21,180 bases of DNA, from positions 1-21,180 of the IMG/VR virus record IMGVR_UViG_3300033984_000137, one strand, 5' to 3'. Positions 1,943 to 20,731 of the stretch are shown in pieces. A program made the translations under genes and the position numbers. The DNA is from a virus. Position 1 is the stretch's first letter, and each line of letters opens with the position of its first letter. The notes below the pieces were generated by a model. The model made no database searches. It worked only from the letters and a program-made list of their open reading frames with translations, and had not been told where the DNA came from.

Positions 1943-2506
1943 TTAATTTGTTTTTTTTGGTAAACGCCCGCCCCTTTTTTTTGTAATCTTTGAAAGTTTC
2001 GGAGCTTCAAATTTACTTGAATCAATGTGAGTTTCTTCGATTACTTCGGGTACGATTTCTTCGTGTAAAGTTTCCAAAACCTTTTCCGCTTTCGCTGGCT
2101 TTTCAATCAATTGAAAAAACTTTGAAAATTGCGGGTTAAGTTTTAAAATCGCATCAATTTTTTCATCTGTTGCGTTTTCAGGTGTAATAGTATCGGGGCT
2201 TCCAAACATTCTAAAACGTGTGGTTAGCATTTTGTATTTCTTTAAATTTCCCATTTGTTTTTTTTTGATTTGTTTAAATTCAGAATTCAAATTTACTGAA
2301 TTATCCCAACCCTCGCCCAAACTACTTATTTTCTTTAATTCAAAGTAAGCATCGACCGCACATTGAAAGCACTTAAAACCTCTCGGTTCGCGCCCTGTAA
2401 CCGCTTTATAAATTACAAAAACCCTTTGCATCGCATCCCCTTTTCGAGAATGTAGCAAAGGGCTTTTCAATTCGTCCAGCTCCGAAATTAGCTGGCTTAA
2501 AATCAC
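1943..2506 (-). CDS. Unknown phage structural-region protein, GTG start
   Basis: This 187-aa protein is not assigned a function. Residues about 27-55 form a compact region with a CxxC pair (FKCFQCAVDAYFELKK) that could bind metal. Around residues 93-130 there is a beta-rich segment and NATDEKIDAILKLNPQFSKF, a pattern I recall from small proteins near structural genes of Bacteroidota phages. The C-terminus is acidic (HEEIVPEVIEETH), then strongly basic (KKRGGRLPKK). The start is GTG at 2506-2504, overlapping the upstream TGA as GTGA, which argues for coupled translation. An internal ATG at Met26 is the alternative start. Confidence 0.6.
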   Translation of the reverse strand: MILSQLISELDELKSPLLHSRKGDAMQRVFVIYKAVTGREPRGFKCFQCAVDAYFELKKISSLGEGWDNSVNLNSEFKQIKKKQMGNLKKYKMLTTRFRMFGSPDTITPENATDEKIDAILKLNPQFSKFFQLIEKPAKAEKVLETLHEEIVPEVIEETHIDSSKFEAPKLSKITKKRGGRLPKKTN

Positions 2507-3087
2507 GGTGTAAATAAACTTTCTAAGAATGCTTTTGTAGTTGCGTAACTTGTATCAAACAAAGTTGCTGGCAAATAAGGTTCTTTGATTTGCTCAGAAG
2601 AACTCAAAGTAATAGTATAAGCCCCTTGCGTTTCAGCATCGTTTACAACGCGCGTTAAAACATTAATTGTTAATCCTGAACGCAAACCATAGATTTCAAA
2701 AGGAACTTCACCCGTAGAACCTTTGAAATTGTTTTCCACAATTGCAACCATTTTAACGTTTGTCATATATTCCAACTGTTGTTTAATATCGCTTGCATTA
2801 TCAAAAACTCTGAAAATACATTCGTGATTAAACGTGTTTGAATAACGCGCTTTTACTAAAGAAGCCGTTGGATCGATTGAGTTATTTTTTCCCTCAACTC
2901 TATAAAGAAATGCGCCCGCTTCTAAAGTAAAACTTTCGATCAAATTCGGGTTTGCTATATCTTCTACAATCGTAGCTATATCAGCGAAATTCACTAAATA
3001 TAACATATCTTTTACACCCGCCGAAATGGGCTTGGTGCAATCTAAAAAAATGTCGGCATTTATACCGGGACAACTTACGCTTGGCAT
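2503..3087 (-). CDS. Probable major tail tube protein
   Basis: This 194-aa protein is predicted mostly beta-strand, as expected for the tube subunit of a long-tailed phage. Key segments are SCPGINADIFLDCTKPISAG near the N-terminus, VKMVAIVENN around residues 100-112, and FEIYGLRSGLTI followed by NDAETQGAYTITLSS around residues 125-165. The ending is EPYLPATLF, a combination I associate with tail tube proteins of Bacteroidota phages. It is separated from the capsid gene by a terminator hairpin, so its level is probably below that of the capsid protein. The assignment rests on remembered patterns, size and context; another abundant virion protein is the main alternative. Confidence 0.55.
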   Translation of the reverse strand: MPSVSCPGINADIFLDCTKPISAGVKDMLYLVNFADIATIVEDIANPNLIESFTLEAGAFLYRVEGKNNSIDPTASLVKARYSNTFNHECIFRVFDNASDIKQQLEYMTNVKMVAIVENNFKGSTGEVPFEIYGLRSGLTINVLTRVVNDAETQGAYTITLSSSEQIKEPYLPATLFDTSYATTKAFLESLFTP

Positions 3088-5350: not shown

Positions 5351-5602
5351 TTACTTTTCGCTAATCCATTTTAACGCTCTATAAATAGTTTGGATTCCGC
5401 ATTGATATTTTTGCGCCGCGTTATAAATTGCATCCATTCGCGTTTGTCCTATCTTTTGGAACGTGTCAACATCGAAATAAATGTTTCTGTATTTAATTGC
5501 AAATGGTTCTATTAATCCAGCTTTATAAAGTGAAATTATTTCGCCCGAATCGCTTAGGCGTTTTATAATTTCTAATCGAGTTTCTTGTTTAGATCGTTCC
5601 AT
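5351..5602 (-). CDS. Small helix-turn-helix-like protein
   Basis: This 83-aa protein is mostly helical. Its last 30 residues, MDAIYNAAQKYQCGIQTIYR followed by ALKWISEK, read as a helix-turn-helix like those of Mor-type or resolvase-type DNA-binding proteins. The first half contains LYKAGLIEPFAIKYRNIYF, a pattern I recall from small proteins in Bacteroidota phages. Its ATG overlaps the tape-measure stop by 14 bases, so it is probably translated with the late operon. A DNA-binding regulator between the tail and head blocks would be in a position to affect head-gene expression, but that is inference. A structural role is also possible. Confidence 0.55.
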   Translation of the reverse strand: MERSKQETRLEIIKRLSDSGEIISLYKAGLIEPFAIKYRNIYFDVDTFQKIGQTRMDAIYNAAQKYQCGIQTIYRALKWISEK

Positions 5603-8513
5603 TTACGCGGACCTCTGAATAATCAGATTGTTTTTTGTTTATATCCGTAACCCTTACCACAGGAGAAATGCCCGAAATAGCCGAAATAAGGCGCTCAGTT
5701 GAATCATTTGCCGCCGTTGGTACATTTGCCCCGCCGAAATTAATAACGCCCGTTGCGAAGCGATTTCGAGTATTTAGGAATTCAAGTAAGCCGGGATAAT
5801 TAGTTTGCGCAAAATTAGTTCCCCTCGCGGTTATAACCGATTCGCCCCTTGAAAGCCGCGCGGGTATCGAATCGCTTGTTTCAGTTCCGGGACCATTTAA
5901 CCCGATTACACCCTTTGCAAAGCCCGGAGCCGCTGGCGGCGGTTGGGATTGTATCGCGGAAATTTGCGCCGCCGTTAGTGCCGCCGTTGTTATAGCTGCA
6001 ATTGCGCCCCCGATCGGTCCTAATTGCGCAAAGCCCTGAATGATTGCTTGCGCCGCACCTATTAACGCTTGCGCCGTTGCAAATGCTTTGTCGGTTTCAA
6101 ATTGTTTTTTTGCAATTTTATATTTTTCTTGCGCCGACTTTTTATTGATTTCTTTAATCCTTGCAGCTTTTTGTTCTTCGTTTAAAGTTGAATTATTAAC
6201 CGCGTCTATTTCAGCTTGCGCGCCTTTGTCAATGTTATTTAATTGAGTTTCGAATCCTAAATTAACAATTTCCTGAACTTTGTTTAATCCCGATCCAATA
6301 GCTTCGACCGCTTTAGCTGCTTTTTCTACGTCTTCATCTGAAAGCCCTAAACTTTCTCCGAATGTAGGTTGATCGGTTTTTACTTCGCCTAATCCTTTTC
6401 GCGCCGCTTCTAAAGCCGTTTGAATGGTTTGAATTCCTTGTAATTCAGTTTGAGTTATTAATCCATCCGCACCCGCAAACTGAGCCGTTAACGCTAACTG
6501 TTGCTCTAAACTTTTTATTTGAATATCCAGCTTTGCCGCTTGCTTTTCGGCTTCCGTTGCGGTGCTTAAATCGACGGCGTCCTGATCTAATTTTAATTGC
6601 GCGTTTAAAGCTGCAATTTGATTATTAAAATCTTCGGCGGCGAAAGTATCTTTTATTTTTTGAATTTCCGCTTGTTTTAATTTTTCTATTTCGGCTTCGG
6701 TAAATCCTTGAGCGATTAACGCCGTTTCCTTTTGTTTAAACGCGTTTTCCTGAATAGATAATCTATTTGCTAAAGAATCCGTTTCAATCGCTAACAACTG
6801 AGCTTCGACCGCCAGCGCGTTATCAATTACCTTTTGCCCTTTTTCTTTTTCGGCTTTTTCTAAATCTTCGTCAAATTTTAATAAAGCGGTTTGTTTTTGG
6901 GCTTCGATTTTTGCGCGTAACTGAATTTCCTTTTCTCCATTCCCAACTAAAACGGCGGCTTTATCTTCAAAAGTTTTAGCTAACTTTTCACGCGCCGTCA
7001 AATTAAATTCGTTTTCCAGCGAAGACAAAGTTTCAGCGTATTTTTTACGTTCGGCTTTTGCATCTTCAGCGGCTTTTTTATTATCCTCTTTTATTTTATC
7101 GTTTTTTTCCGTTTCTGTTGCAATTTCTTTTGCGGCGGTTTCCGCTTTTGAATCTAAAACTTCCTGTTGTAAACCTTGAATCTGACGGCTTAAATTTATT
7201 TGTTCTTTTGCGCTAACATTAGCAGCTTTTGCTAAATTTAATTGCGCTTGCAATTGCAGGATTAATTTATTTGTCGAATCCTCGAAACTTTTTGCTTTTT
7301 GTTTTTCTAAGTCAATAGTTGTTTTTCCAGCCGCTGAAGCTAATTTAATTTGTCTATCAAAAGTTGCCCCAACTATCGAATTATAACGGTCGTATGAATC
7401 CGATGCGCTTTCGATTGCTACTGCTTGTTTACTAAATTGTTGAGCGGCGGAATTTGCGGCGCGTTCCTGTTCTGTTGTTAATCCAAGAAAATCAGTTACC
7501 GCGTTTTTAATATCGTCAAAATAAATAATTAATGCGGCAATTCCACCAATTAAAGCCGCAACACCTAAAGTTGCAATTGCCCAAGCCGCTCCAGAAGCAA
7601 CCCCGAACGCTTTTGTTATAACAGTTAAAACAGTTGTGCCACCTGATAAAATCGCATTCCCAGCAATTAATGTTTTTTGCCCGGCTGCTGCAAACGTATC
7701 TATAATCGCGCCCCTTTCTTTTACGATATTTGAAATATTTTGCCCAATTGCAAGGGCTTTTGTACTTGCTGCAAGTGCATCCGTAACGTTTTTATTTTCG
7801 CCAAAAGCCAATTTAACCAATTCCGAAGCCGAAGCCGCCGCCGCGCTTGTTGCTACAAAATCCTTTAAACCTTTATTTGCTGCTATGGGTTTATCTTCAG
7901 CTCCTAATTTTTTTATTTTATCCTCAACATCATTAATTGCTAATCCTAATTTTTCCGCTTCTTGTTGAGATTCGGTAAATTGAATTGAACTTGGATCTGT
8001 TGCCTCAATTGTTTTTCGCAATTCGTCCAACTTTGCCCGCATTAATTCCAAAGTATTTTGGTAATTACCTACGTTTTGATTCCCTTGCTTAATACCAGCG
8101 TTAAAAAGCAAAAGACCTTCCCGCGCGTTATCTACTTGCTCTTTTGCTTTAAAATAAGCATCCGTAAAAGTTACGGTCCCGTCTGCATTTGTTTTTAAAG
8201 TTCCTGTTAAATTCTTTAATTCAATTTCCGCTAAAGTTGAATTTCGCAAAAGTTGTTCGTAGGAATCTGCATTTGCGTTTAGTGCTTGGGCTTGAATAAA
8301 TAATTGACGTTCGTTATTGGAAATTTCTTTATTTAAAAATTTAATTTCCGTTGCGGTTTTAATATACGCGTCTGTTACTTCGCCTTGATTTTTTAAAAGT
8401 GTTTTATTTTGCTCTTTTAATCCAGCAACTTGGTTTTTTAATTCAGCCGTTTTTTTTATTACGTCCTCACTCTTAAATTGAATGTCTAATATTAAAGTTT
8501 GCGTTTCAGCCAT
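5589..8513 (-). CDS. Tail tape measure protein
   Basis: At 974 aa this is the longest protein here. It is highly helical and rich in Ala, Lys, Glu and Gln, as expected for the protein that sets tail length. N-terminal coiled coils cover roughly residues 15-210. A hydrophobic membrane-like segment is at about 309-331 (AWAIATLGVAALIGG). More coiled coil runs from 400 to 800, and a Gly/Ala-rich hydrophobic stretch from 812 to 857. The C-terminus has SDSIPARLSRGESVI (about 880-894), a motif shared by many tape-measure C-termini. By the usual rule of about 0.15 nm per residue, the tail would be near 145 nm, in the siphovirus range. It follows two tail-tip proteins rather than the tube and chaperone, which is atypical. 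Confidence 0.88.
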   Translation of the reverse strand: MAETQTLILDIQFKSEDVIKKTAELKNQVAGLKEQNKTLLKNQGEVTDAYIKTATEIKFLNKEISNNERQLFIQAQALNANADSYEQLLRNSTLAEIELKNLTGTLKTNADGTVTFTDAYFKAKEQVDNAREGLLLFNAGIKQGNQNVGNYQNTLELMRAKLDELRKTIEATDPSSIQFTESQQEAEKLGLAINDVEDKIKKLGAEDKPIAANKGLKDFVATSAAAASASELVKLAFGENKNVTDALAASTKALAIGQNISNIVKERGAIIDTFAAAGQKTLIAGNAILSGGTTVLTVITKAFGVASGAAWAIATLGVAALIGGIAALIIYFDDIKNAVTDFLGLTTEQERAANSAAQQFSKQAVAIESASDSYDRYNSIVGATFDRQIKLASAAGKTTIDLEKQKAKSFEDSTNKLILQLQAQLNLAKAANVSAKEQINLSRQIQGLQQEVLDSKAETAAKEIATETEKNDKIKEDNKKAAEDAKAERKKYAETLSSLENEFNLTAREKLAKTFEDKAAVLVGNGEKEIQLRAKIEAQKQTALLKFDEDLEKAEKEKGQKVIDNALAVEAQLLAIETDSLANRLSIQENAFKQKETALIAQGFTEAEIEKLKQAEIQKIKDTFAAEDFNNQIAALNAQLKLDQDAVDLSTATEAEKQAAKLDIQIKSLEQQLALTAQFAGADGLITQTELQGIQTIQTALEAARKGLGEVKTDQPTFGESLGLSDEDVEKAAKAVEAIGSGLNKVQEIVNLGFETQLNNIDKGAQAEIDAVNNSTLNEEQKAARIKEINKKSAQEKYKIAKKQFETDKAFATAQALIGAAQAIIQGFAQLGPIGGAIAAITTAALTAAQISAIQSQPPPAAPGFAKGVIGLNGPGTETSDSIPARLSRGESVITARGTNFAQTNYPGLLEFLNTRNRFATGVINFGGANVPTAANDSTERLISAISGISPVVRVTDINKKQSDYSEVRVNGTI

Positions 8514-10554: not shown

Positions 10555-12305
10555 TACGCGTATTGATTAAAATATTTCGGTTTAACAAAAGTTAATTCGA
10601 TATTAAAGTAATCGTCTTTAGTTGAACGAATATTAAATGTACCCGGCTCAACTCGAACCCCGATCCATTTTGAAAGGTCTTCATTATACCAATAAATTTT
10701 CGGGCTTGTTGGTAAAACTTTTAATCCTTCGGCTTCGTTTCTTGTTAGCGTATTGCTGCCAACTTGAACCGCTGGCGAAACATTCTTAAAAGTTACGTTT
10801 TCAAAATCTTTTGTATCGGAAATATTATCGAAATAACTTTCATAGTTATTCCCGTTCTCAACTTTGAAGCCTTCGTAAATTTTGCCTTCAAATAACCAAT
10901 AATCCCAACCGCCTAAGGTATTAAGCCACTTAACAAAGAAAGTGTTGCAGGATTGCTCTATTGAGCGTTTAACGTTAATTGTGATCGGGGCGAAAGCATC
11001 TAAAAACAAAGGTGAGTCAATACGCCCAAAACGAAATTCTATTTTTTTCGCCTTTTCAAGTTCCCCCGCTAAAAGTGCAGCTTCAAAAATTGGTAAAACA
11101 TTTAACCTCGCCAAACAAACAAAATCAGTAAAAATAAACGGGTCGGAATCATATTCCGTTATATTTCCGTTTGCTTGGGTTATCGTGTATCGTACAAAAT
11201 AATCTTCGTAACCTATATTCATATTTTGATTACCCAAAAATGAAAGCGAAAAAGGAAACCCGAAAAAGTAAACAGGGTTTTCAAATTGCGTTATAAATTG
11301 CGGCATCAATTCGGGATAAACTTTCGTTCCTTCGGTATTTCCAAAATATTTATTATAATAACCGTTGTTCGGGTCCCCGATTTGAAACGCGCCCGCAATG
11401 CAAAATTTAACGTCCTCAAGTGCAAAATAATTAACCCAGCTTTCAGAACTTCCGATCCAATTGTCCTTTGTCGCAAAATAAAATGGGGAATATAAATTTA
11501 AATCTTCGGTTCTAATTTCAGTTTCAACAATTTGAAAATCGGTAAAGTTCAAATTTAATAAGCTGCGTAACGCCCCCGAAATTTCGGCGCGCATTATTCC
11601 GCTGGCACCGGGCGTGAATCTCAATTCCCTTGTTTGAGGGTTTAAAGCGTTATCTGTAATTTTTAGAGTAACGTAAAAATTTAATCGAGATAAAATATTT
11701 ACGATAGCTAAAAAGAAAGGACTAAAAACGCTCCACGTTTTATCGAATGTTGCGTAAGCAAAACCGCCCGATGTAGAAATATCTAAAATTGTAAAGTTTT
11801 CTGTTAACCCGCTTTCAGTTATTACCTGAACAACCGCGCCAACTTCATAACCGGGAAAAATAATAGTTTCGCCCATAACATTAGTTCCGCACTTGATTTG
11901 ATAATAGGTGCCGTTCCAATCGCTTTGCGTTGCCAAATCTTTGTAATCCTGCCTTTGCATTATAATTACAACGGGATTAAAAGCCGCAACAACATTAACG
12001 TCTAAATCAATGCTTCCCGTATCAGGTGGCAAAACTACATTTCGCAAAAATACAGACGGATATAAAATAAAAATTAACGTATCAATCGTAACATTTGAAC
12101 CCGTTATATTAATTATTTCAGCTTCGATATATTGACTAACCGAAAACAAAACGAAAACTTTATCCCCTACGTTTAAATCACCGGGACTTGTATAAAAAAA
12201 CTGAAAATATACGGGATTAAATGTCGATTGAACAAAAGTTGCGGGGGTTCGAATTCCCCTTTGTTGAAGTACCGAATTTATATTAGATATTATTTCCGTT
12301 GCCAT
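10554..12305 (-). CDS. Large beta-rich tail protein
   Basis: This 583-aa protein is predicted to be largely beta-strand with many aromatic residues. No enzymatic motif is visible. A region near residues 225-260 (FTPGASGIMRAEISGALRSL) resembles segments I recall in tail proteins of Bacteroidota phages that sit beside the hub protein. The C-terminal third has EQSCNTFFVKWLNTLGGWDY and an ending rich in Tyr and Lys (VKPKYFNQYA). The gene overlaps the upstream gp10-like gene by 23 bases and the downstream gene by one base, so all three belong to one translational unit. Distal-tail structure is the best guess; a receptor-binding role cannot be excluded. Confidence 0.6.
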   Translation of the reverse strand: MATEIISNINSVLQQRGIRTPATFVQSTFNPVYFQFFYTSPGDLNVGDKVFVLFSVSQYIEAEIINITGSNVTIDTLIFILYPSVFLRNVVLPPDTGSIDLDVNVVAAFNPVVIIMQRQDYKDLATQSDWNGTYYQIKCGTNVMGETIIFPGYEVGAVVQVITESGLTENFTILDISTSGGFAYATFDKTWSVFSPFFLAIVNILSRLNFYVTLKITDNALNPQTRELRFTPGASGIMRAEISGALRSLLNLNFTDFQIVETEIRTEDLNLYSPFYFATKDNWIGSSESWVNYFALEDVKFCIAGAFQIGDPNNGYYNKYFGNTEGTKVYPELMPQFITQFENPVYFFGFPFSLSFLGNQNMNIGYEDYFVRYTITQANGNITEYDSDPFIFTDFVCLARLNVLPIFEAALLAGELEKAKKIEFRFGRIDSPLFLDAFAPITINVKRSIEQSCNTFFVKWLNTLGGWDYWLFEGKIYEGFKVENGNNYESYFDNISDTKDFENVTFKNVSPAVQVGSNTLTRNEAEGLKVLPTSPKIYWYNEDLSKWIGVRVEPGTFNIRSTKDDYFNIELTFVKPKYFNQYA

Positions 12306-12783
12306 AAATTTCCGTTTTTGCGCTCTTTACAAAATCCAAAATTAATCTTTTACTTAATTGCTCAATTCTCCCGTCATTGATAACATCGTTTATTATTCCT
12401 GTGGGCTTATTCATTCCCCGAAAGTTCTTTCCTGTTCTGTGCAATAAATCCCCTTGTCTATGAATTTTTCGAGCGATTAAAAACGCTAAAGTTTCTTTTT
12501 TGATATTATCGCGTGGAATTATTCCCTTATCGTTTATCCATTGTAAAATAATTCCCTTTAAACTTCCGTTACCGCTTCCCGTTGTTTTCTTTCGTCCGTA
12601 TTCAAGCCCATAAATAAAAGCCCGCCCGTAAAGTTTATAAGAGTTTAAAGTATATACCGAATTTAAACTTTCTTTTGTTTTTCCGCTTGCAGTTGTACCC
12701 GCCGCATCCAAACTTTTACGTAAGTCCGAAATTAACTTTTTATCAAAATCTTCTAAAGTTTTTTTATCCAGCGATAAACTCAT
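12283..12783 (-). CDS. HK97-gp10-like head-tail/tail completion protein
   Basis: This 166-aa protein has a helical N-terminus (LSLDKKTLEDFDKKLISDLR), then SGKTKESLNS followed by YGRAFIYGLEYGRKKT, and a KIHRQGDLLHRTGKN segment. In HK97-gp10-type minor proteins the sequence likewise carries a 'residues-to-be-tolerated at the surface' pattern of Y..FIEYG.RP and ends with a helix (SKRLILDFVKSAKTEIYG). Such proteins help join or complete the tail. It lies one base after the IPT-domain gene stop and overlaps the next gene by 23 bases. The link to gp10 is a moderate-confidence pattern match. Confidence 0.5.
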   Translation of the reverse strand: MSLSLDKKTLEDFDKKLISDLRKSLDAAGTTASGKTKESLNSVYTLNSYKLYGRAFIYGLEYGRKKTTGSGNGSLKGIILQWINDKGIIPRDNIKKETLAFLIARKIHRQGDLLHRTGKNFRGMNKPTGIINDVINDGRIEQLSKRLILDFVKSAKTEIYGNGNNI

Positions 12784-12784
12784 T

Positions 12785-13513
12785 TTAATCTAATAAAATC
12801 GTTAAACAATTTTCTAAAGTAAATTGAATTGAATCGGGGTTTGTAACCGTTACCGAACGCGTACCAATTAAAGCCGCAATATTTACCGAAATGTTTATTT
12901 CAATTTCAGTATCGGAAATAAAATCGGTTGAATTAATTGTAATTAAAGTTCCGTTTATTTCAATCGTTGCGCCGTCAACAAAACCGCTTCCATTAATTGT
13001 AAAACTTAATGTTTGCCCCTGATAAATCGAAGTTCCAACAATCGAAGTTATAACAGGATTCGAAAAGTAAAACGGCGGTTGTGGACAAATTGCTTCTTCG
13101 TGAATTAATTTAACTTGAAATTGCAAAACAACGCCCGTTAAATTTTGATCTAAGAAATTAAAAACATCATTTAAAGAAACTTCGAAAACTTCGGAAACTT
13201 CGGGATGAGAAATTAAATTAGTGATAAATTGATAAGCAATTAAACGCCGCGTTTCAATTATTTCGTTATGCTGGTCCTGTGTGAATTCAGGTTCGGACTT
13301 ATCGCAAAATAAAATAATAGGCGAATACTGTTCGTTAATTTGTGCATACTTTGAAACCCGAAGAAATTTAAAATCTATCGGTTGATCCATAAAAACGCAC
13401 GGCAAAACAACTTTATCCGCTTGCACGTTTTGAAGCCATTTTGGACCGCTATAAAACAAGCCCGCGCCCATTATCGGGTTTGAACAACTTTTTAAAATTT
13501 CAAATATTCTCAT
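12785..13513 (-). CDS. Tail-terminator-like protein with C-terminal IPT/TIG Ig-like domain
   Basis: This 242-aa protein has two parts. Residues 1-145 form a mixed alpha/beta domain with YSPIILFCDKSEPEFTQDQH, an ETRRLIAYQFITNLISHPEV helix and NLTGVVLQFQVKLIHEEAIC, a layout I associate with tail-completion (terminator) proteins of Bacteroidota phages. Residues 151-240 read as a single IPT/TIG immunoglobulin-like domain: NPVITSIVG, LSFTINGSGFVDGATIEING, then an alternating-hydrophobic stretch and a final TRSVTVTNPD strand. Such Ig-like domains decorate phage virion proteins and may bind cell-surface sugars. It follows the tail chaperone gene. The fusion is seen directly; the function of each part is inferred from family patterns. 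Confidence 0.65.
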   Translation of the reverse strand: MRIFEILKSCSNPIMGAGLFYSGPKWLQNVQADKVVLPCVFMDQPIDFKFLRVSKYAQINEQYSPIILFCDKSEPEFTQDQHNEIIETRRLIAYQFITNLISHPEVSEVFEVSLNDVFNFLDQNLTGVVLQFQVKLIHEEAICPQPPFYFSNPVITSIVGTSIYQGQTLSFTINGSGFVDGATIEINGTLITINSTDFISDTEIEINISVNIAALIGTRSVTVTNPDSIQFTLENCLTILLD

Positions 13514-13517
13514 TTGT

Positions 13518-14323
13518 TTATTTTTTATGTTTTCGTTCGTGTTCTTGCATTATTAACTTTTCGTATCGTTGGTTAAATTTCCGAAGTTCTGAGCGCATTT
13601 TAAAAGTTAAATTAACTTCATACATCGATAAATCCATTACCGCGCTAAACCTCAACGGGTCCCCCTCTGCGAGCGAATAAATCGTGCCGAACTTACCAAA
13701 TTTCTCCAGCTCTTTAATTCCAGCGCGGGTTTCGAGTTCGGAATATCCTTCATTGCTTCCCGTTGTTTTTGAACTGAAATTTGCAATTTGTTCAAAAAAA
13801 AAGCCGAAACAGGATAAGCAATATAAACAGGCATATTCATTACCTCGTTGTTTGCAATATCTTCAATGTCCTTTCGAGCTTCTATTTCGCGGTCCCGAAA
13901 CTTTCCTTTGTAAATCATACTTGCAAGCATCAAAGGTATTTTTTCGCAAAAGTTAGTGGATTCGTTCGAAATTGTTTTTTCGAAAATTTCCATACAACCG
14001 TAATTCATTAATCCCGGATCGATTGAAGTTTTATAAACGTTTTCCCCGCACTTAAACTCTTTCGGGGTTAACCATTCGTCCTTATCTAATTTAGTTTGTA
14101 AAATAAAGTTATAAGCGGGCGCGGCTATTTTTGTAATCGCTTCAAAAGAATAATCTAACAATTCAGATTTATCTAAAGTTGAAACAATCGAAGCGAGCGT
14201 TACTAAATCTTTTTCATCCCCGTTCGCCCATTGCAGCAAATCGATTGTTTGCCCTACGGTTAAATCCTCCCAGCTTCCAGCGATTAAAATAGTTTTTCCG
14301 TTAATTTCAAAAGGTAAATTCAT
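13518..14323 (-). CDS. Tail assembly chaperone, -1 frameshift product (gpGT-like)
   Basis: If the ribosome slips back one base on the T-run at 13802-13794, translation continues in the other frame to the TAA at 13520-13518, giving 268 aa: 176 from the zero frame and 92 from the -1 frame. The added part reads FFFEQIANFSSKTTGSNEGY, then ETRAGIKELEKFGKFGTIYS, LAEGDPLRFSAVMDLSMYEV and a basic tail ending EHERKHKK. The 'FGKFGTIYSLAEGDPLRFSAVMDL' type of segment resembles the T part of tail chaperones in Bacteroidota phages. The -1 frame is open from 13862 but has no ATG before 13637, so it is hard to express without a shift. Transcript slippage, or a homopolymer sequencing error, is the alternative. 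Confidence 0.6.
13652..14323 (-). CDS. Tail assembly chaperone, zero-frame product (gpG-like)
   Basis: This 223-aa protein begins MNLPFEINGKTILIAGSWED followed by LTVGQTIDLLQ, a start pattern I associate with tail-assembly chaperones of Bacteroidota phages. It continues with a helical body ending IANNEVMNMPVYIAYPVSAF (about residues 156-175). Right after residue 174 the coding strand has nine consecutive Ts, and the remaining 47 residues (LNKLQISVQKQ...RSQRGTR) are read only in the zero frame. The overlapping -1 frame has no ATG upstream yet encodes a convincing protein, so this ORF is probably the short partner of a G/GT pair. The chaperone would hold the tape measure during tube assembly. 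It lies 10 bases after the large terminase gene. Confidence 0.7.
   Translation of the reverse strand: MNLPFEINGKTILIAGSWEDLTVGQTIDLLQWANGDEKDLVTLASIVSTLDKSELLDYSFEAITKIAAPAYNFILQTKLDKDEWLTPKEFKCGENVYKTSIDPGLMNYGCMEIFEKTISNESTNFCEKIPLMLASMIYKGKFRDREIEARKDIEDIANNEVMNMPVYIAYPVSAFFLNKLQISVQKQREAMKDIPNSKPALELKSWRNLVSSARFIRSQRGTR
13794..13802 (-). other. Slippery T9 run (candidate programmed frameshift)
   Basis: The coding strand reads GCT TTT TTT TTG AAC in the chaperone frame. Slipping back one base on T-TTT-TTT gives GCT TTT TTT TTT GAA and enters the frame that encodes the second half of the chaperone. Nine Ts can also cause RNA-polymerase slippage, so the shift could occur at transcription or translation. 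I did not establish a stimulatory hairpin downstream. Confidence 0.55.
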
Positions 14324-14333
14324 AAAGTTTTGT

Positions 14334-15560
14334 TTATCGTTTTCCGGGTGTTGTAATAAATGATTCTTTTGTTTTTTTTCCTACTAATCCCGTAACCCCG
14401 TAACGAATCGCATCTAAAGCGTGATTGAAACGGTCTACGGGTTTATTGATTGTTTTGCCTTGTTTATCTATTTGCCAAATGTAATTCTTTATTTCTTTTT
14501 GAATGTTCGGGCTTCGAACTAAAAAAACAGGGTATTGTTTTATTTTTTGAATTCCCTGAATAATTGAATCGGGACCTTTAACAGTTGATTGAATATTGAA
14601 ACCGCTGGTTAGAATTTCTTTAATTGATTTCGGTTCGGCGGAATCCGCAAAGATTGTATCATTTCTTTTTATACCCGCTTCGCTCATTCGCTTGCAAATT
14701 TCGGGGTTTGTTAAACCATAATCATAAATAAGCTCCTGAATATAAATTGCGCCCTCTGAAATTCTAATATGAACGAGCGCACTTGGATCATTTGTAAAAC
14801 CAAAATCGAGCCCGTAACATTCCATTTTAAAGTTTTCGGGCATAACGTCGACCGATTGCCAATTTTCGAAAACCTTTCCACGTTTACCGCCGCCCCAAAA
14901 TCCGAAAACATCGGAACGCGCCGCTTCGGGATCGTCTTTTATCATTCGTTCCAAAACTCGAATGTAATCGGGGTGCAAGTTTTTAAAATTATCTTTATAC
15001 GTTGCGTGAATTAAAAGCGTGTCTTCGGGTCTAACTTTATCGTGAAATTCAGACTTTAAAAAACAATCTTCGTTATCCGTGTTATAAGTAAAAATTATTT
15101 CGAGTTCCGCACCTTTTACCGAACGCAAACTTTTATCCAATTTATCGAAATCGTCTTTATTAACTTCGTCCGCTTCTTCAATCCAAACAAAAGTTGCTTC
15201 GGTTATCGATTTCATTTTAGCCGTTGAATTTCCCGAAGCCGCCCGAAATCCTTTTGCAAAAATTCGATTCCCCGTTTTCAAATGGGTAATTTGCATTGTA
15301 TTTTCTAAAATATGAAAATCGCTTTGAAGTTCTTTTTCCTCGATTATATCGATAATTTGTTGAAAGCTCGACCCGCGAATATCTGCGAAATGTTGACGGG
15401 CTAAAATCCCGCGAAAATATTCGGGGCTATAAAGTTTCGTTATAGCGTATTGCGCGACCTCGAACGACCTTCCAGCCCCGCGACCCCCGAATAGGTGTTT
15501 ATATCGTTTCTTTTGGCGGTATAAATCGACGTATGCGGAATTAACTTGCAGGGCTTTCAT
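14334..15560 (-). CDS. terL: Terminase large subunit
   Basis: This 408-aa protein is the DNA-packaging motor. The N-terminal ATPase has a Walker A-like GGRGAGRS (residues 25-32), a Walker B-type FVWIEEADEV (124-133) with adjacent glutamates for catalysis, and TYNTDNEDCF (158-167) at the coupling position. The C-terminal RNase H-like nuclease carries Asp252 in YGLDFGFTNDPSA, Asp306 in IFADSAEPKS and Asp383 in RFNHALDAIRYG, the usual acidic residues for cutting concatemers. The pattern is close to PBSX-type (Terminase_3) enzymes. The ATG overlaps the small terminase candidate by 20 bases. Length matches the family, and no break is seen. Confidence 0.93.
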   Translation of the reverse strand: MKALQVNSAYVDLYRQKKRYKHLFGGRGAGRSFEVAQYAITKLYSPEYFRGILARQHFADIRGSSFQQIIDIIEEKELQSDFHILENTMQITHLKTGNRIFAKGFRAASGNSTAKMKSITEATFVWIEEADEVNKDDFDKLDKSLRSVKGAELEIIFTYNTDNEDCFLKSEFHDKVRPEDTLLIHATYKDNFKNLHPDYIRVLERMIKDDPEAARSDVFGFWGGGKRGKVFENWQSVDVMPENFKMECYGLDFGFTNDPSALVHIRISEGAIYIQELIYDYGLTNPEICKRMSEAGIKRNDTIFADSAEPKSIKEILTSGFNIQSTVKGPDSIIQGIQKIKQYPVFLVRSPNIQKEIKNYIWQIDKQGKTINKPVDRFNHALDAIRYGVTGLVGKKTKESFITTPGKR

Positions 15561-15931: not shown

Positions 15932-16585
15932 TTAGAGCGCAAGGATCGGAATCGAACCGTCTATTTCAATGCTGGTCGCATCGTGTTTATCCTTATTAAC
16001 TTCTTGCGCTTGTATTTTTTTGGGGTATGGTTTTTTTAATGATTCACACAAAGGTATTAATGATTTAATTAACGGATAAATATATTTTCTTTTTCCGCTT
16101 CGTTTTCGTGTTTCTAATTTTGATAAAAATTCTTTTGGATATTCGTTTAATGTTCTATCGTGTCTCCATTGTCCCTTATAAAAAAAATCCTTTCCACTAC
16201 TTTCATTTTCTCCTACAAAATACCAATTAGTTGCCTGATAAATTGTACCATAATGATTTTGCCCTTTATCTGAATATGAAATAAGAAGTTTAACGGTTGG
16301 ATTTTGTTTTTTTATTAATTTCATTGCAATACTCATAGCTTTTGAACTACTTTCTTGTTTTCCATTTAAAGCCATTCTTGTTAATTCTAAATATTGACCA
16401 TAATTTAATTTATAAGGTTTTCCCATATTTGCTGATGCACCACCACCAAATAAAATAACGCCACACCATTCATTTTTATCGTTAAAAACTGAATAACCAA
16501 AATATTGAGCTGGAACAACTTTTGAATAATGAAAATTTAAACAAGCGTATTTAACGGCTTTATTTGATGCAATTTCTAATCTCAT
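15932..16585 (-). CDS. mom: Mom-like DNA adenine modification enzyme
   Basis: This 217-aa protein matches the Mom family of phage Mu, a GNAT-fold enzyme that converts adenine to N6-methylcarbamoyl-adenine and protects DNA from restriction. Visible motifs in order are LNFHYSKVVPA (17-27), GVILFGGGASANMG (42-55), YLELTRMAL (65-73), SYSDKGQNHYGTIYQATNWY (103-122), RKYIYPL (166-172) and KPYPKK (185-190). The start at 16585 overlaps the ParB-like stop as ATGA, so the pair is coupled. Bases 16100-16530 use fewer CpG and 'cgaa' words than neighbouring genes, suggesting recent acquisition. The last 25 codons also fold as a tRNA-like shape. No com-like translational regulator is visible. The substrate and chemistry are inferred from the family. 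Confidence 0.8.
   Translation of the reverse strand: MRLEIASNKAVKYACLNFHYSKVVPAQYFGYSVFNDKNEWCGVILFGGGASANMGKPYKLNYGQYLELTRMALNGKQESSSKAMSIAMKLIKKQNPTVKLLISYSDKGQNHYGTIYQATNWYFVGENESSGKDFFYKGQWRHDRTLNEYPKEFLSKLETRKRSGKRKYIYPLIKSLIPLCESLKKPYPKKIQAQEVNKDKHDATSIEIDGSIPILAL
15936..16010 (-). other. tRNA-like structure inside the 3' end of the mom-like gene
   Basis: On the minus strand the ends AGCGCAAG (16010-16003) and CTTGCGCT (15943-15936) pair perfectly over 8 bp. Between them lie a short D-arm (GTT/AAC, 3 bp) with GG in the loop, a 5-bp anticodon-like stem CGATG/CATTG (one G-T pair) with a 7-base loop CGACCAG, a 5-base variable loop and a T-loop GGTTCGATTCC. Spacing of the arms is that of a tRNA. 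Deviations: position 33 is G rather than U, one mismatch in the T-stem, one extra C before the acceptor 3' strand, and no CCA. It may be a degenerate tRNA, an RNA mimic or chance. Confidence 0.4.
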
Positions 16586-18603: not shown

Positions 18604-18615
18604 AGTATTTTTTTT

Positions 18616-20013
18616 TTAAAATGGTAATTCTCTATCGACTTCGTAAAATGATTTATTCGGCTGCAAATTAGATTTTATTTCTTGAAATTGATTTTGGCTT
18701 TCATTCATTCCAAAAAAACTGCTCATTGTGGAATTGTGCCGAAAACCTACGGAACCCGTCGCGCCTTGTCGGTGTTTTTCGAATAGTAAAAATATTTCAT
18801 TTGTGTAAGGTGCGCCCGTGTCCTCGTTTTTTAAATCGTAATATTCAGGTCGCCAAATAAACGCGACGGTATCTGCGTCTTGTTCAATGGAACCCGATTC
18901 GCGTAAATGTGAAAGGGACGGTTTTTTGTCGGTTGTTTCCTCGCATTTTCGGTTTAACTGAGCTAAAACAATAAAGGGAATATTTAATTCCTTTTGTGCC
19001 GCTTTCAATGTGCGGGATATTTGCGAAACTTCCGCTTCCCTGTTACCCCCTTTAAACCCTTCTAAGGTCATTAACTGCAAATAGTCGATAATTACCCACT
19101 GACATTCATTTAAACGCGCGTGTCGTTTTATTATGCGAATTGCTTCATTTACCCCGCATCCAGCTTTATCATAAATTTTAAAAGGTTTGTTTTCAACTAT
19201 TCCGATTGTCTTTTCGAAGTATGTTAATTCGTCGGGGTTTAACGTCCCGTCCCTTAAAGCCGAAGATCGAATTCTTTCGTTTGAGTTTTGCAAAATTAAA
19301 CGCTGGGTTAATTGCGATTGACTCATTTCGAGATTGAAATATATTCCGGGCTTTTGTGTTTGCATTCCGAAAAATAAAGCAAGGGCGGTTTTTCCCATTG
19401 AAGGACGCGCCCCGATTATAATTAATTCGTTTTGCCAGCCGCCCGTAAATTTATTTACTGATTCAATCCCCGTTTCTAAGCCGCTTGTTTGCCCTGATTT
19501 TGCTAATTCGGCGCGTCTATAATATGCCTCGCGTTCGTTTGTTGTGAGTTCGGGCATTTCAACTATCTTTTGAAGTTCGGAACCTTCTTCGGTTAGTTTG
19601 GTTAGGCGTTTAATCATTTCCTCGGCTATATCTCGACCGGGTTTCTTTTCGTGTAAACCTATTCCAACCTCGTAATAGATTTTCGTAATATTTCGCGTTA
19701 TTAAGGCGTTATGAAGGGTTTCTATTATTTCGGGGATGTTCTCGTTATAAGTTACGTTTTGACTTGTTTTAAGAGCTTCGGCGTATTCATCCATTGAAAA
19801 GGATTCCGAAGATTTCCACGCGTTCAAAAGTGAAACGGGATCGGGTCGTTTATTTTCGTCATTTATTTTTTTTATAAAATGGAATGTCTTTCGGCAAAGG
19901 TCGTTTTCAAAGTGGTGCGGTCCGATTTGCGAAATGATTTCTTTGTAAATTTCATTCGGGCTTAAAAGTATTCCGATTAAAGTTTTTTCGATTTGATCGT
20001 TGGGGTTATTCAT
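18616..20013 (-). CDS. dnaB: DnaB-type replicative helicase
   Basis: This 465-aa hexameric helicase unwinds DNA at the replication fork. The N-terminal helical domain holds EKTLIGILLSPNEIYKEII and HHFENDLCRKTFHFIKKI. The C-terminal RecA-like motor has Walker A GARPSMGKTALAL (about 201-213), the motif FNLEMSQSQLTQRL, Walker B VIIDYLQLM (307-315), VLAQLNRKCE and LSHLRESGSIEQDADTVAFI. I chose ATG 20013, which gives MNNPNDQIEKTLIG and an 8-base overlap with the upstream stop. A longer reading from 20106 would add 31 unlike residues within the initiator gene. It lies directly after the initiator, which would load it at the origin. Confidence 0.93.
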   Translation of the reverse strand: MNNPNDQIEKTLIGILLSPNEIYKEIISQIGPHHFENDLCRKTFHFIKKINDENKRPDPVSLLNAWKSSESFSMDEYAEALKTSQNVTYNENIPEIIETLHNALITRNITKIYYEVGIGLHEKKPGRDIAEEMIKRLTKLTEEGSELQKIVEMPELTTNEREAYYRRAELAKSGQTSGLETGIESVNKFTGGWQNELIIIGARPSMGKTALALFFGMQTQKPGIYFNLEMSQSQLTQRLILQNSNERIRSSALRDGTLNPDELTYFEKTIGIVENKPFKIYDKAGCGVNEAIRIIKRHARLNECQWVIIDYLQLMTLEGFKGGNREAEVSQISRTLKAAQKELNIPFIVLAQLNRKCEETTDKKPSLSHLRESGSIEQDADTVAFIWRPEYYDLKNEDTGAPYTNEIFLLFEKHRQGATGSVGFRHNSTMSSFFGMNESQNQFQEIKSNLQPNKSFYEVDRELPF

Positions 20014-20731
20014 AATAGATTTTAGATTTTGAAGGGGTTTTGATTTCGTATTTGCCAGCGTTTTGAGTGTTTCCAATCCATTGTTGCAATTTATTTTGGA
20101 TTCCAAAATTTCTTTGGTGGTTTAATTCTATTCCGCCGTCCTTGTGCGGGGTTGAATAATAGTTAATGAAGTCTTTATAAAGAATTTCAGGATAACCGCT
20201 ATTCGGGTGTTCTTCCTTAAATTTATTTATTCGCTCTGTAAATTCTTCGGGGCTTGCTTTCACAAACCAATTATGCAAACCTAAATTAGAACTTTTTGAA
20301 ACTTGATTTTCATTTTCTGCAAAAAAGTCTTTATTGTTTATATTGTCTATATCCTCTTTAATAGTCTTATGATTATGGGCGTTGCTTTCGCCTTGCTTTT
20401 TCTTTGCTTCGGCTTTGCTTTGGTTTTGCTTTGGACTTGCTTCGGTAAATTTTACCAACCCAAAAATGTTGCATTGATATTGATTTTTGCTTTGAACTAC
20501 TATTTTAATTAAACCGTTTTCAACTAAAATATCGAGATTCTTTTTATAAGTTTTATAATTAGAAACACCGACCGCGCTAATTATCTGAGTTGAACTAAGC
20601 CCGAAGGATTCCTTCCAGCGTAATTCATTTGCAACGTTTAAAATATAAAAATAGATTGCCGTTACCGTTGGGTTATTTTTCTCAGGATTATTTAAAGCCC
20701 AATTCCAAAAGCCGTTAAAATACTCAAACAT
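20006..20731 (-). CDS. Replication initiator / helicase-loading organiser
   Basis: This 241-aa protein resembles phage replisome organisers. The N-terminal domain (about 1-90) is a winged helix like DnaD/lambda O-type initiators: FWNWALNNPEKNNPTVTAIY, SFGLSSTQIISAVGVSNYKT and LDILVENGLIKIV. A low-complexity Lys/Gln/Glu linker (about 95-125) is encoded by the six 11-bp repeats. The C-terminal part, residues about 150-230, has NWFVKASPEEFTERINKF and GIQNKLQQWIGN, and could contact the helicase. DnaB follows directly. The gene overlaps its upstream neighbour by 8 bases. Initiator with origin repeats inside its own gene is the lambda O arrangement. Confidence 0.75.
   Translation of the reverse strand: MFEYFNGFWNWALNNPEKNNPTVTAIYFYILNVANELRWKESFGLSSTQIISAVGVSNYKTYKKNLDILVENGLIKIVVQSKNQYQCNIFGLVKFTEASPKQNQSKAEAKKKQGESNAHNHKTIKEDIDNINNKDFFAENENQVSKSSNLGLHNWFVKASPEEFTERINKFKEEHPNSGYPEILYKDFINYYSTPHKDGGIELNHQRNFGIQNKLQQWIGNTQNAGKYEIKTPSKSKIYYE
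20281..20447. other. Candidate replication origin within the initiator gene
   Basis: Six 11-bp repeats (20382-20447) adjoin a very AT-rich block (20281-20370; I count about 20 G/C in 90 bases). Repeats plus an AT-rich unwinding region inside an initiator gene is the layout of lambda ori in gene O. A dnaB gene follows. The function is inferred from the layout. Confidence 0.6.
20382..20447. repeat. Six 11-bp iteron-like repeats
   Basis: TTGCTT begins at 20382, 20393, 20404, 20415, 20426 and 20437, exactly every 11 bases. The units are ttgctttcgcc, ttgctttttct, ttgcttcggct, ttgctttggtt, ttgctttggac and ttgcttcggta; on the coding strand each ends AAGCAA. Because 11 is not a multiple of 3, the encoded peptide does not repeat in step with the DNA units, so the repeat is held at DNA level. 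Eleven bases is about one helical turn, placing all sites on one face. Confidence 0.8.

Follow-up and report, generated by a model that had tools for sequence, protein, structure and literature searches.

Does the gene that follows the terminase gene in this viral genome encode one protein or two, and what might its products do? We analysed a window of 21,180 nucleotides, the whole stretch studied here, from IMG/VR record IMGVR_UViG_3300033984_000137. On the minus strand of the window, the string GC-T9-GAAC links a 223-aa frame (frame 0) of a gene that we call X to a −1 frame without a start (Table 1). Specifically, frame 0 reads GCT TTT TTT TTG AAC at window positions 13802-13794. The −1 frame extends from the T run as far as a stop codon at 13520-13518; its first ATG is 39 codons from the end, and it has no ATG, GTG or TTG earlier. 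A −1 step at T_TTT_TTT reads A-F-F-F-E-Q and yields a fused protein of 268 aa, in which 92 residues come after Phe176. The short product consists of the shared residues 1-176 and a 47-residue 0-frame tail. The original prediction, that a 223-aa frame is joined at nine Ts to a second frame with no ATG before its last 39 codons and with a 92-aa extension, is thus borne out by the frames and the run.

Table 1. Coordinates of gene X, its slip site and neighbouring genes in the window
Feature	Coordinates	Strand	Evidence
X, frame 0, short product of 223 aa	13652..14323	minus	ORF call; dN/dS 0.077 upstream of the slip
T9 slip site, in-phase heptamer T_TTT_TTT after Ala174	13794..13802	minus	identical in 15/15 relatives
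X, frame −1, last 92 residues of the 268-aa product	13518..13796, stop codon included	minus	dN/dS 0.079; profile matches
46-codon overlap of X, constrained in both frames	13655..13793	minus	dS, dN/dS
Terminase large subunit (TerL), next gene 5′ of X	14334..15560	minus	phrog_3717, E 1.7e-41
Y, next gene 3′ of X, phrog_33245-like, TIG domain	12785..13513	minus	profile match; homologue behind X in BS-TP3 and prophage L155
Z, phrog_31246-like	12283..12783	minus	profile match; same order in BS-TP3
Two large genes, 583 and 672 aa	8536..12305	minus	homologues in prophages L155/L156, E 1e-15 to 1e-17
Tape measure protein, 5 kb downstream of X	5589..8513	minus	partial match to annotated tape measure proteins

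A search of IMG/VR with the frame-0 protein of X returned 18 loci with 81-97% identity, and the 15 loci that cover the T run with enough flank were taken into a comparison of the run. All 15 carry the exact string GCTTTTTTTTTGAACAAATTG, with exactly GC-T9-GAACAAATTG, both open frames and the 0-frame stop. Other A/T runs of at least 8 in the window mostly change among relatives, being kept, for example, in 0 of 9, 2 of 10, 2 of 11 and 9 of 15 cases. Because T9 and both frames are kept in all 15 relatives that cover the site while most other runs decay, the frame split of X is not a matter of chance.

The two frames of X are both under selection in the window's group. Before the T run, variable columns fall mostly on the third codon position of frame 0 (129, versus 37 and 22 at the other two positions), while past the frame-0 stop they fall mostly on the third position of frame −1 (33, versus 15 and 6), and variability in 30-nt bins places the change of pattern at the T run. 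The dN/dS ratio is 0.077 before the slip in frame 0 and 0.079 past the 0-frame stop in frame −1 (Nei-Gojobori, 16 sequences). In the 46-codon overlap, the ratio for the same 16 sequences is 0.44 in frame 0, 0.33 in frame −1 and 3.8 in the third frame, and dS is 0.26-0.30 versus 0.78-0.80 in the flanks, i.e. synonymous change is about one third. In addition, the frame-0 stop lies at the same codon in all 16 sequences (TAA in 10, TGA in 6), and Y starts 1-5 nt past the −1-frame stop in all 16; if frame 0 alone were used, the gap before Y in the window would be about 138 nt.

Two further observations were made on these contigs. The 34-kb contig IMGVR_UViG_3300044715_000581 (L063, L064) carries the X region at both ends in differing sequences, 87% and 85% identical to the query, and is perhaps a chimeric assembly. 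Elsewhere in the window, an A8 run (ATA AAA AAA ATA, F-I-K-K-I; 19866-19873) in a DnaB-like helicase gene (18616-20106, minus strand) is kept in 11 of 11 relatives, including relatives at 71-73% identity. Slippage there in either direction would meet a stop within 3 codons and leave an N-terminal fragment of about 80 aa. The T10 run at the end of the helicase gene (18608-18617) varies from 8 to 10 among relatives.

The same split is found in distant relatives. A profile of the fused protein matched 5 of 395 Bacteroidota genomes, each in the C-terminal part only, in an open frame of about 99 codons just past TerL; this frame shares about 160 nt with another of 233-236 aa, from which it is offset by one base. 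In a set of 300 genomes from one Bacteroidota order, 62 have the gene, and most of these give a pair of matches in different frames whose ends come together near query residue 193. Read base by base, all 48 distinct intact prophage copies are −1 shifted at an in-phase T_TTT_TTT at the aligned residue (L126, L166 and L167, in which the second half is missing or the match is marginal, were left out of the table of copies). The fused prophage proteins, about 279 aa long, align with the fused X of the window along its length, slip residue to slip residue, and a profile comparison (hhalign) gives E 2.6e-8 over 129 columns spanning the join. Furthermore, phrog_21085 matches 6 of 6 fused proteins with a best E of 7e-4, in a stretch that spans the join (residues 146-197), and 0 of 14 frame-0 proteins; a search with phrog_21085 across the Bacteroidota genomes gave no match. 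Together with the selection patterns, these homologues split at the same residue strongly support a −1 shift on T-TTT-TTT that gives a 268-aa product, as first predicted.

The prophage genes also differ from X of the window. Their runs are T7 or T8 with a GGAGG in one clade and T9 or T10 elsewhere, and their 0-frame past the slip is only weakly constrained (pN/pS 1.15, with no clear selection at the protein level), so that the claim of dual coding is limited to the window's group. The gene order matches that of the window at the two prophage loci that were read over 20 kb, with matches to the TerL, Y, 583-aa, 672-aa and ClpP-like proteins. Prophages of the L155 and L156 type also carry several small extra genes between the structural genes, often with signal-peptide-like starts.

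These data bear on two rival explanations of the split. Homopolymers are a common site of error and the window is a metagenomic contig, but a sequencing or assembly error that hides a single frame has a negligible probability, since the same T9 occurs in 15 further contigs from separate data sets, the frame-0 stop and the frame-0 constraint are kept, and the split is alike in all 48 distinct prophage copies, whether their run is T7, T8, T9 or T10. That dozens of distantly related prophages share the slip, at the matching residue, therefore indicates a real two-product switch. It is only slightly less improbable that X represents two separate genes, with the −1 frame translated from a start of its own or after re-initiation. 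That frame is a distinct open frame, but it holds no ATG, GTG or TTG before its last 39 codons, homologues run continuously across the join, and single-frame homologues exist. The two outcomes that the original prediction had named as counting against it did not appear: the second half is present in homologues, and in none of the relatives does the run length restore one frame.

The minus strand of the window carries, in order, TerS, TerL, X, Y, Z, the 583-aa gene, the 672-aa gene, the tape measure gene, an 83-aa gene, a ClpP-like protease gene, capsid, candidate tail tube, a 187-aa gene and portal, where capsid and tail tube are named on the basis of their position and of weak matches. The cultured phages Elizabethkingia TCUEAP1, Cellulophaga phi46:1 and Bacteroides BS-TP3 share the order TerL-X-Y-Z-two large genes-tape measure, and in them the gene after TerL is a single frame of 176-180 aa without a slip site, and its product aligns with the C-terminal part of fused X. 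The original prediction had correctly placed X next to the terminase gene and far from the tape measure gene, but had taken this for an oddity; given the same order in cultured Bacteroidota phages and in prophages, it is the normal place for this architecture. The window also has a Mom-like DNA modification gene (15932-16585, minus strand), which adjoins a ParB-like gene.

Profile searches link the C-terminal part of X to phrog_28240, which matches the −1-frame part of the window with E 0.005, TCUEAP1_3 with E 0.01 and BS-TP3 gp55 with E 1.6e-30. The phrog_28240 proteins, from gut Bacteroides phages and of unknown function, resemble X in following TerL, in having the same two neighbours (phrog_33245 and phrog_31246) and in their homologous C-terminal part, and by profile match and neighbours X belongs with them. 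They differ from X in being about 180 aa long in one frame, with no slip site and without the middle module. Comparison of 22 gut-phage members with fused X (hhalign) gave E 6.4e-6 for the −1-frame part and, less strongly, E 3e-4 for the N-terminal LTVGQTIDL module. No match was obtained with the X protein of TCUEAP1 as query in the viral contigs, or with A1 as query in the genome contigs. One gut prophage copy of the single-frame homologue (L081 5001-5426 / L107) carries an early frameshift and stop relative to a near-identical L111 copy.

What do the products do? We consider it likely that X is one gene that yields two proteins by a slip at the T run and that their common part is a G/GT-like tail assembly chaperone. 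The chaperone assignment is our best guess, plausible but not proven, and is made by analogy: X lies in the tail block, a two-product −1 shift marks that class, and the X counterpart of phi46:1 is not noted as a virion protein. Specifically, gp16 of phi46:1 has no MS/MS note, as expected for a non-virion chaperone, while the virion proteins gp19-gp21 have one, a weak piece of negative evidence; gp19 and gp20, annotated as virion proteins by MS/MS, are the counterparts of the 583- and 672-aa genes. −1 frameshifting in tail chaperones is widely conserved (PMC5009743). Like lambda gpG/gpGT and its analogues in long-tailed dsDNA phages, X lies in the tail block, has two overlapping frames on the same strand with a conserved −1 slip, a common N-terminal part with two C-termini, a long form that reads into a start-less second frame and, in the window's group, selection on both products. 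In that class the slip is −1 or, rarely, +1. The heptamer fits the conserved in-phase pattern X_XXY_YYZ of bacterial −1 ribosomal frameshift sites, being T_TTT_TTT in the window's group and in all 48 intact prophage copies.

X is also unlike lambda gpG/gpGT in several ways. It shows no detectable sequence relation, its slip site is a homopolymeric T run rather than GGGAAAG, and its short frame goes on for 47 codons past the slip, with dual coding in the overlap, whereas the slip of lambda is described as near the end of the short frame. Furthermore, X is not situated between the major tail protein and tape measure genes; it follows TerL, with four genes between it and the tape measure gene, and the candidate tail tube gene (2503-3087) is on the far side of the capsid gene. 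X nevertheless shares both tail block and strand with these genes. Neither half of X matches a tail assembly chaperone profile in Pfam, PHROGs or NCBIfam. The predicted G/GT label is plausible but lacks a profile to back it. The 'KFGTIYSLAEGDPL' segment, once assigned to the T part of a G/GT pair, does form the conserved core of the C-terminal part; it matches only phrog_28240 and no chaperone family. In view of its position and the profile results, we do not file X as a member of the G/GT type, and we keep what it may work like apart from what it is. A second G/GT candidate, an A9 run in the gene at 1943-2506 that follows the presumed tail tube gene, was rejected, as slippage there meets stops within about 20 codons.

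A different view is that X is a frameshifted protein of another kind, e.g. a packaging or neck protein with two isoforms, and this we regard as unlikely. X adjoins the terminase gene, four genes away from the tape measure gene, and its gut homologues need one form only; single-frame homologues in BS-TP3, TCUEAP1, phi46:1 and gut Bacteroides prophages do without a frameshift, which speaks against the chaperone reading. Structure prediction has not named a function either. The AlphaFold model of the 223-aa frame-0 product is uninformative (pLDDT 43). The model of a single-frame homologue is confident (pLDDT 85.6), but its fold has no meaningful match in the PDB and its viral Foldseek matches are unnamed phage proteins, so that no function follows from the fold. 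On the other hand, all genomes examined have X inside the tail block, ahead of tail genes and not of capsid genes, and tail chaperones are the best-known case of non-virion phage proteins with a two-product −1 shift.

On the chaperone reading, most decoding would remain in frame 0 and give the 223-aa protein, while a fraction would slip −1 at T_TTT_TTT and give the 268-aa protein with its different and longer C-terminal part. We infer that the two proteins are made at a fixed ratio, with the short form as the major and the long form as the minor product. By analogy with lambda gpG/gpGT, the common N-terminal part may act as a tail assembly chaperone that binds the tape measure protein, and the minor long form may recruit another tail protein through its C-terminal part. 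In the G/GT type, the G part binds the tape measure protein, the T part binds the tail tube protein, and the chaperone is not found in the virion.

Is the slip made by the ribosome or by RNA polymerase? The length of the T run varies with an upstream motif. We compared the 48 prophage copies (L120-L154, L157-L176 range) with 4 copies of the window's group. GGAGG is present in 30 of 30 copies with T7 (27) or T8 (3) and absent from 22 of 22 copies, the window included, with T9 (19) or T10 (3). In the 30 copies that have it, the GGAGG begins 24 nt upstream of the run, within an almost invariant GGTAACGGAGGCRCT located 17-36 nt ahead of the slip. Codon use elsewhere in these genes favours GAA for Glu (254, versus 97 GAG), and ACG is a minority codon for Thr (52 of 308), so that the protein sequence does not dictate the GGTAACGGAGGCRCT string. 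In a FastTree of the fused proteins, the copies with GGAGG group in a single clade with weak support (0.48), and the association accordingly counts as one event; the T9/T10 state looks ancestral from these sequences. A short 5′ hairpin may form in the T7/T8 prophage clade (alifold −5.8 versus −1.0 ± 1.3 for shuffled sequences; weak), and no downstream structure was found at the slip of this clade. Near T9 in the window's group, no conserved stem or hairpin and no SD-like signal was found, and an Rfam search gave no meaningful match.

On balance, we lean towards ribosomal slippage at T9, since relatives with T7 keep the run in heptamer phase. Transcriptional slippage, in which RNA polymerase adds one U or drops two on T9 so that some of the transcripts already carry the −1 frame, is possible given the length of T9, the lack of a stimulator and the lack of any T7/T8 copy without GGAGG, but we hold it to be somewhat unlikely. 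Transcriptional slippage in bacteria starts to show at a run length of T9/T10 (PMC1088944; PMC5009743), no conserved hairpin or SD-like signal accompanies T9 in the window's group, and none of the 22 copies without GGAGG has a run shorter than T9. In addition, runs of A9 or longer are rarer than expected in the coding regions of six related genomes (4 seen versus 10.3 expected, counts that are not independent). Against it, 27 homologue copies keep only T7, below the usual slippage length, in the exact ribosomal phase; the other known shifts in phage tail chaperones are ribosomal (PMC5009743); and T9 may also be held by the two overlapping reading frames. Transcriptional slippage would also yield a third, truncated product ending ...SAFF, because in a U8 mRNA GC-T8-GAAC reads GCT TTT TTT TGA.

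We tentatively suggest that this one gene family may use two interchangeable frameshift signals, a bare T9/T10 in the window's group and in basal prophages, possibly with transcriptional slippage, and T7/T8 with an invariant upstream GGAGG in the derived clade. The spacing between the SD and the slip site in dnaX is shorter than the 19-nt GGAGG spacing seen here. Like X, dnaX, which has a ribosomal shift in E. coli and transcriptional slippage on A9 in Thermus, combines a short slippery site with an SD-like signal in one lineage and has a 9-base homopolymer without the signal in another, although dnaX is an unrelated gene. This parallel draws in part on PMC5009743 and PMC1088944.

Ribosomes of Bacteroidia reportedly do not use the SD for initiation, their 16S tail being sequestered (PMC9976891). 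If GGAGG stimulates ribosomal frameshifting in Bacteroidota, elongating ribosomes would use an anti-Shine-Dalgarno that is reportedly hidden during initiation (PMC9976891). The trade of run length against GGAGG is a natural experiment on the evolution of a frameshift site where ribosomes ignore Shine-Dalgarno for initiation. Furthermore, a post-terminase protein across this phage group and about one-fifth of 300 genomes of one Bacteroidota order has a hidden, start-less half gene and is truncated by gene callers, and X can be tested as a candidate for the tail assembly chaperone that is missing in Bacteroidota phages.
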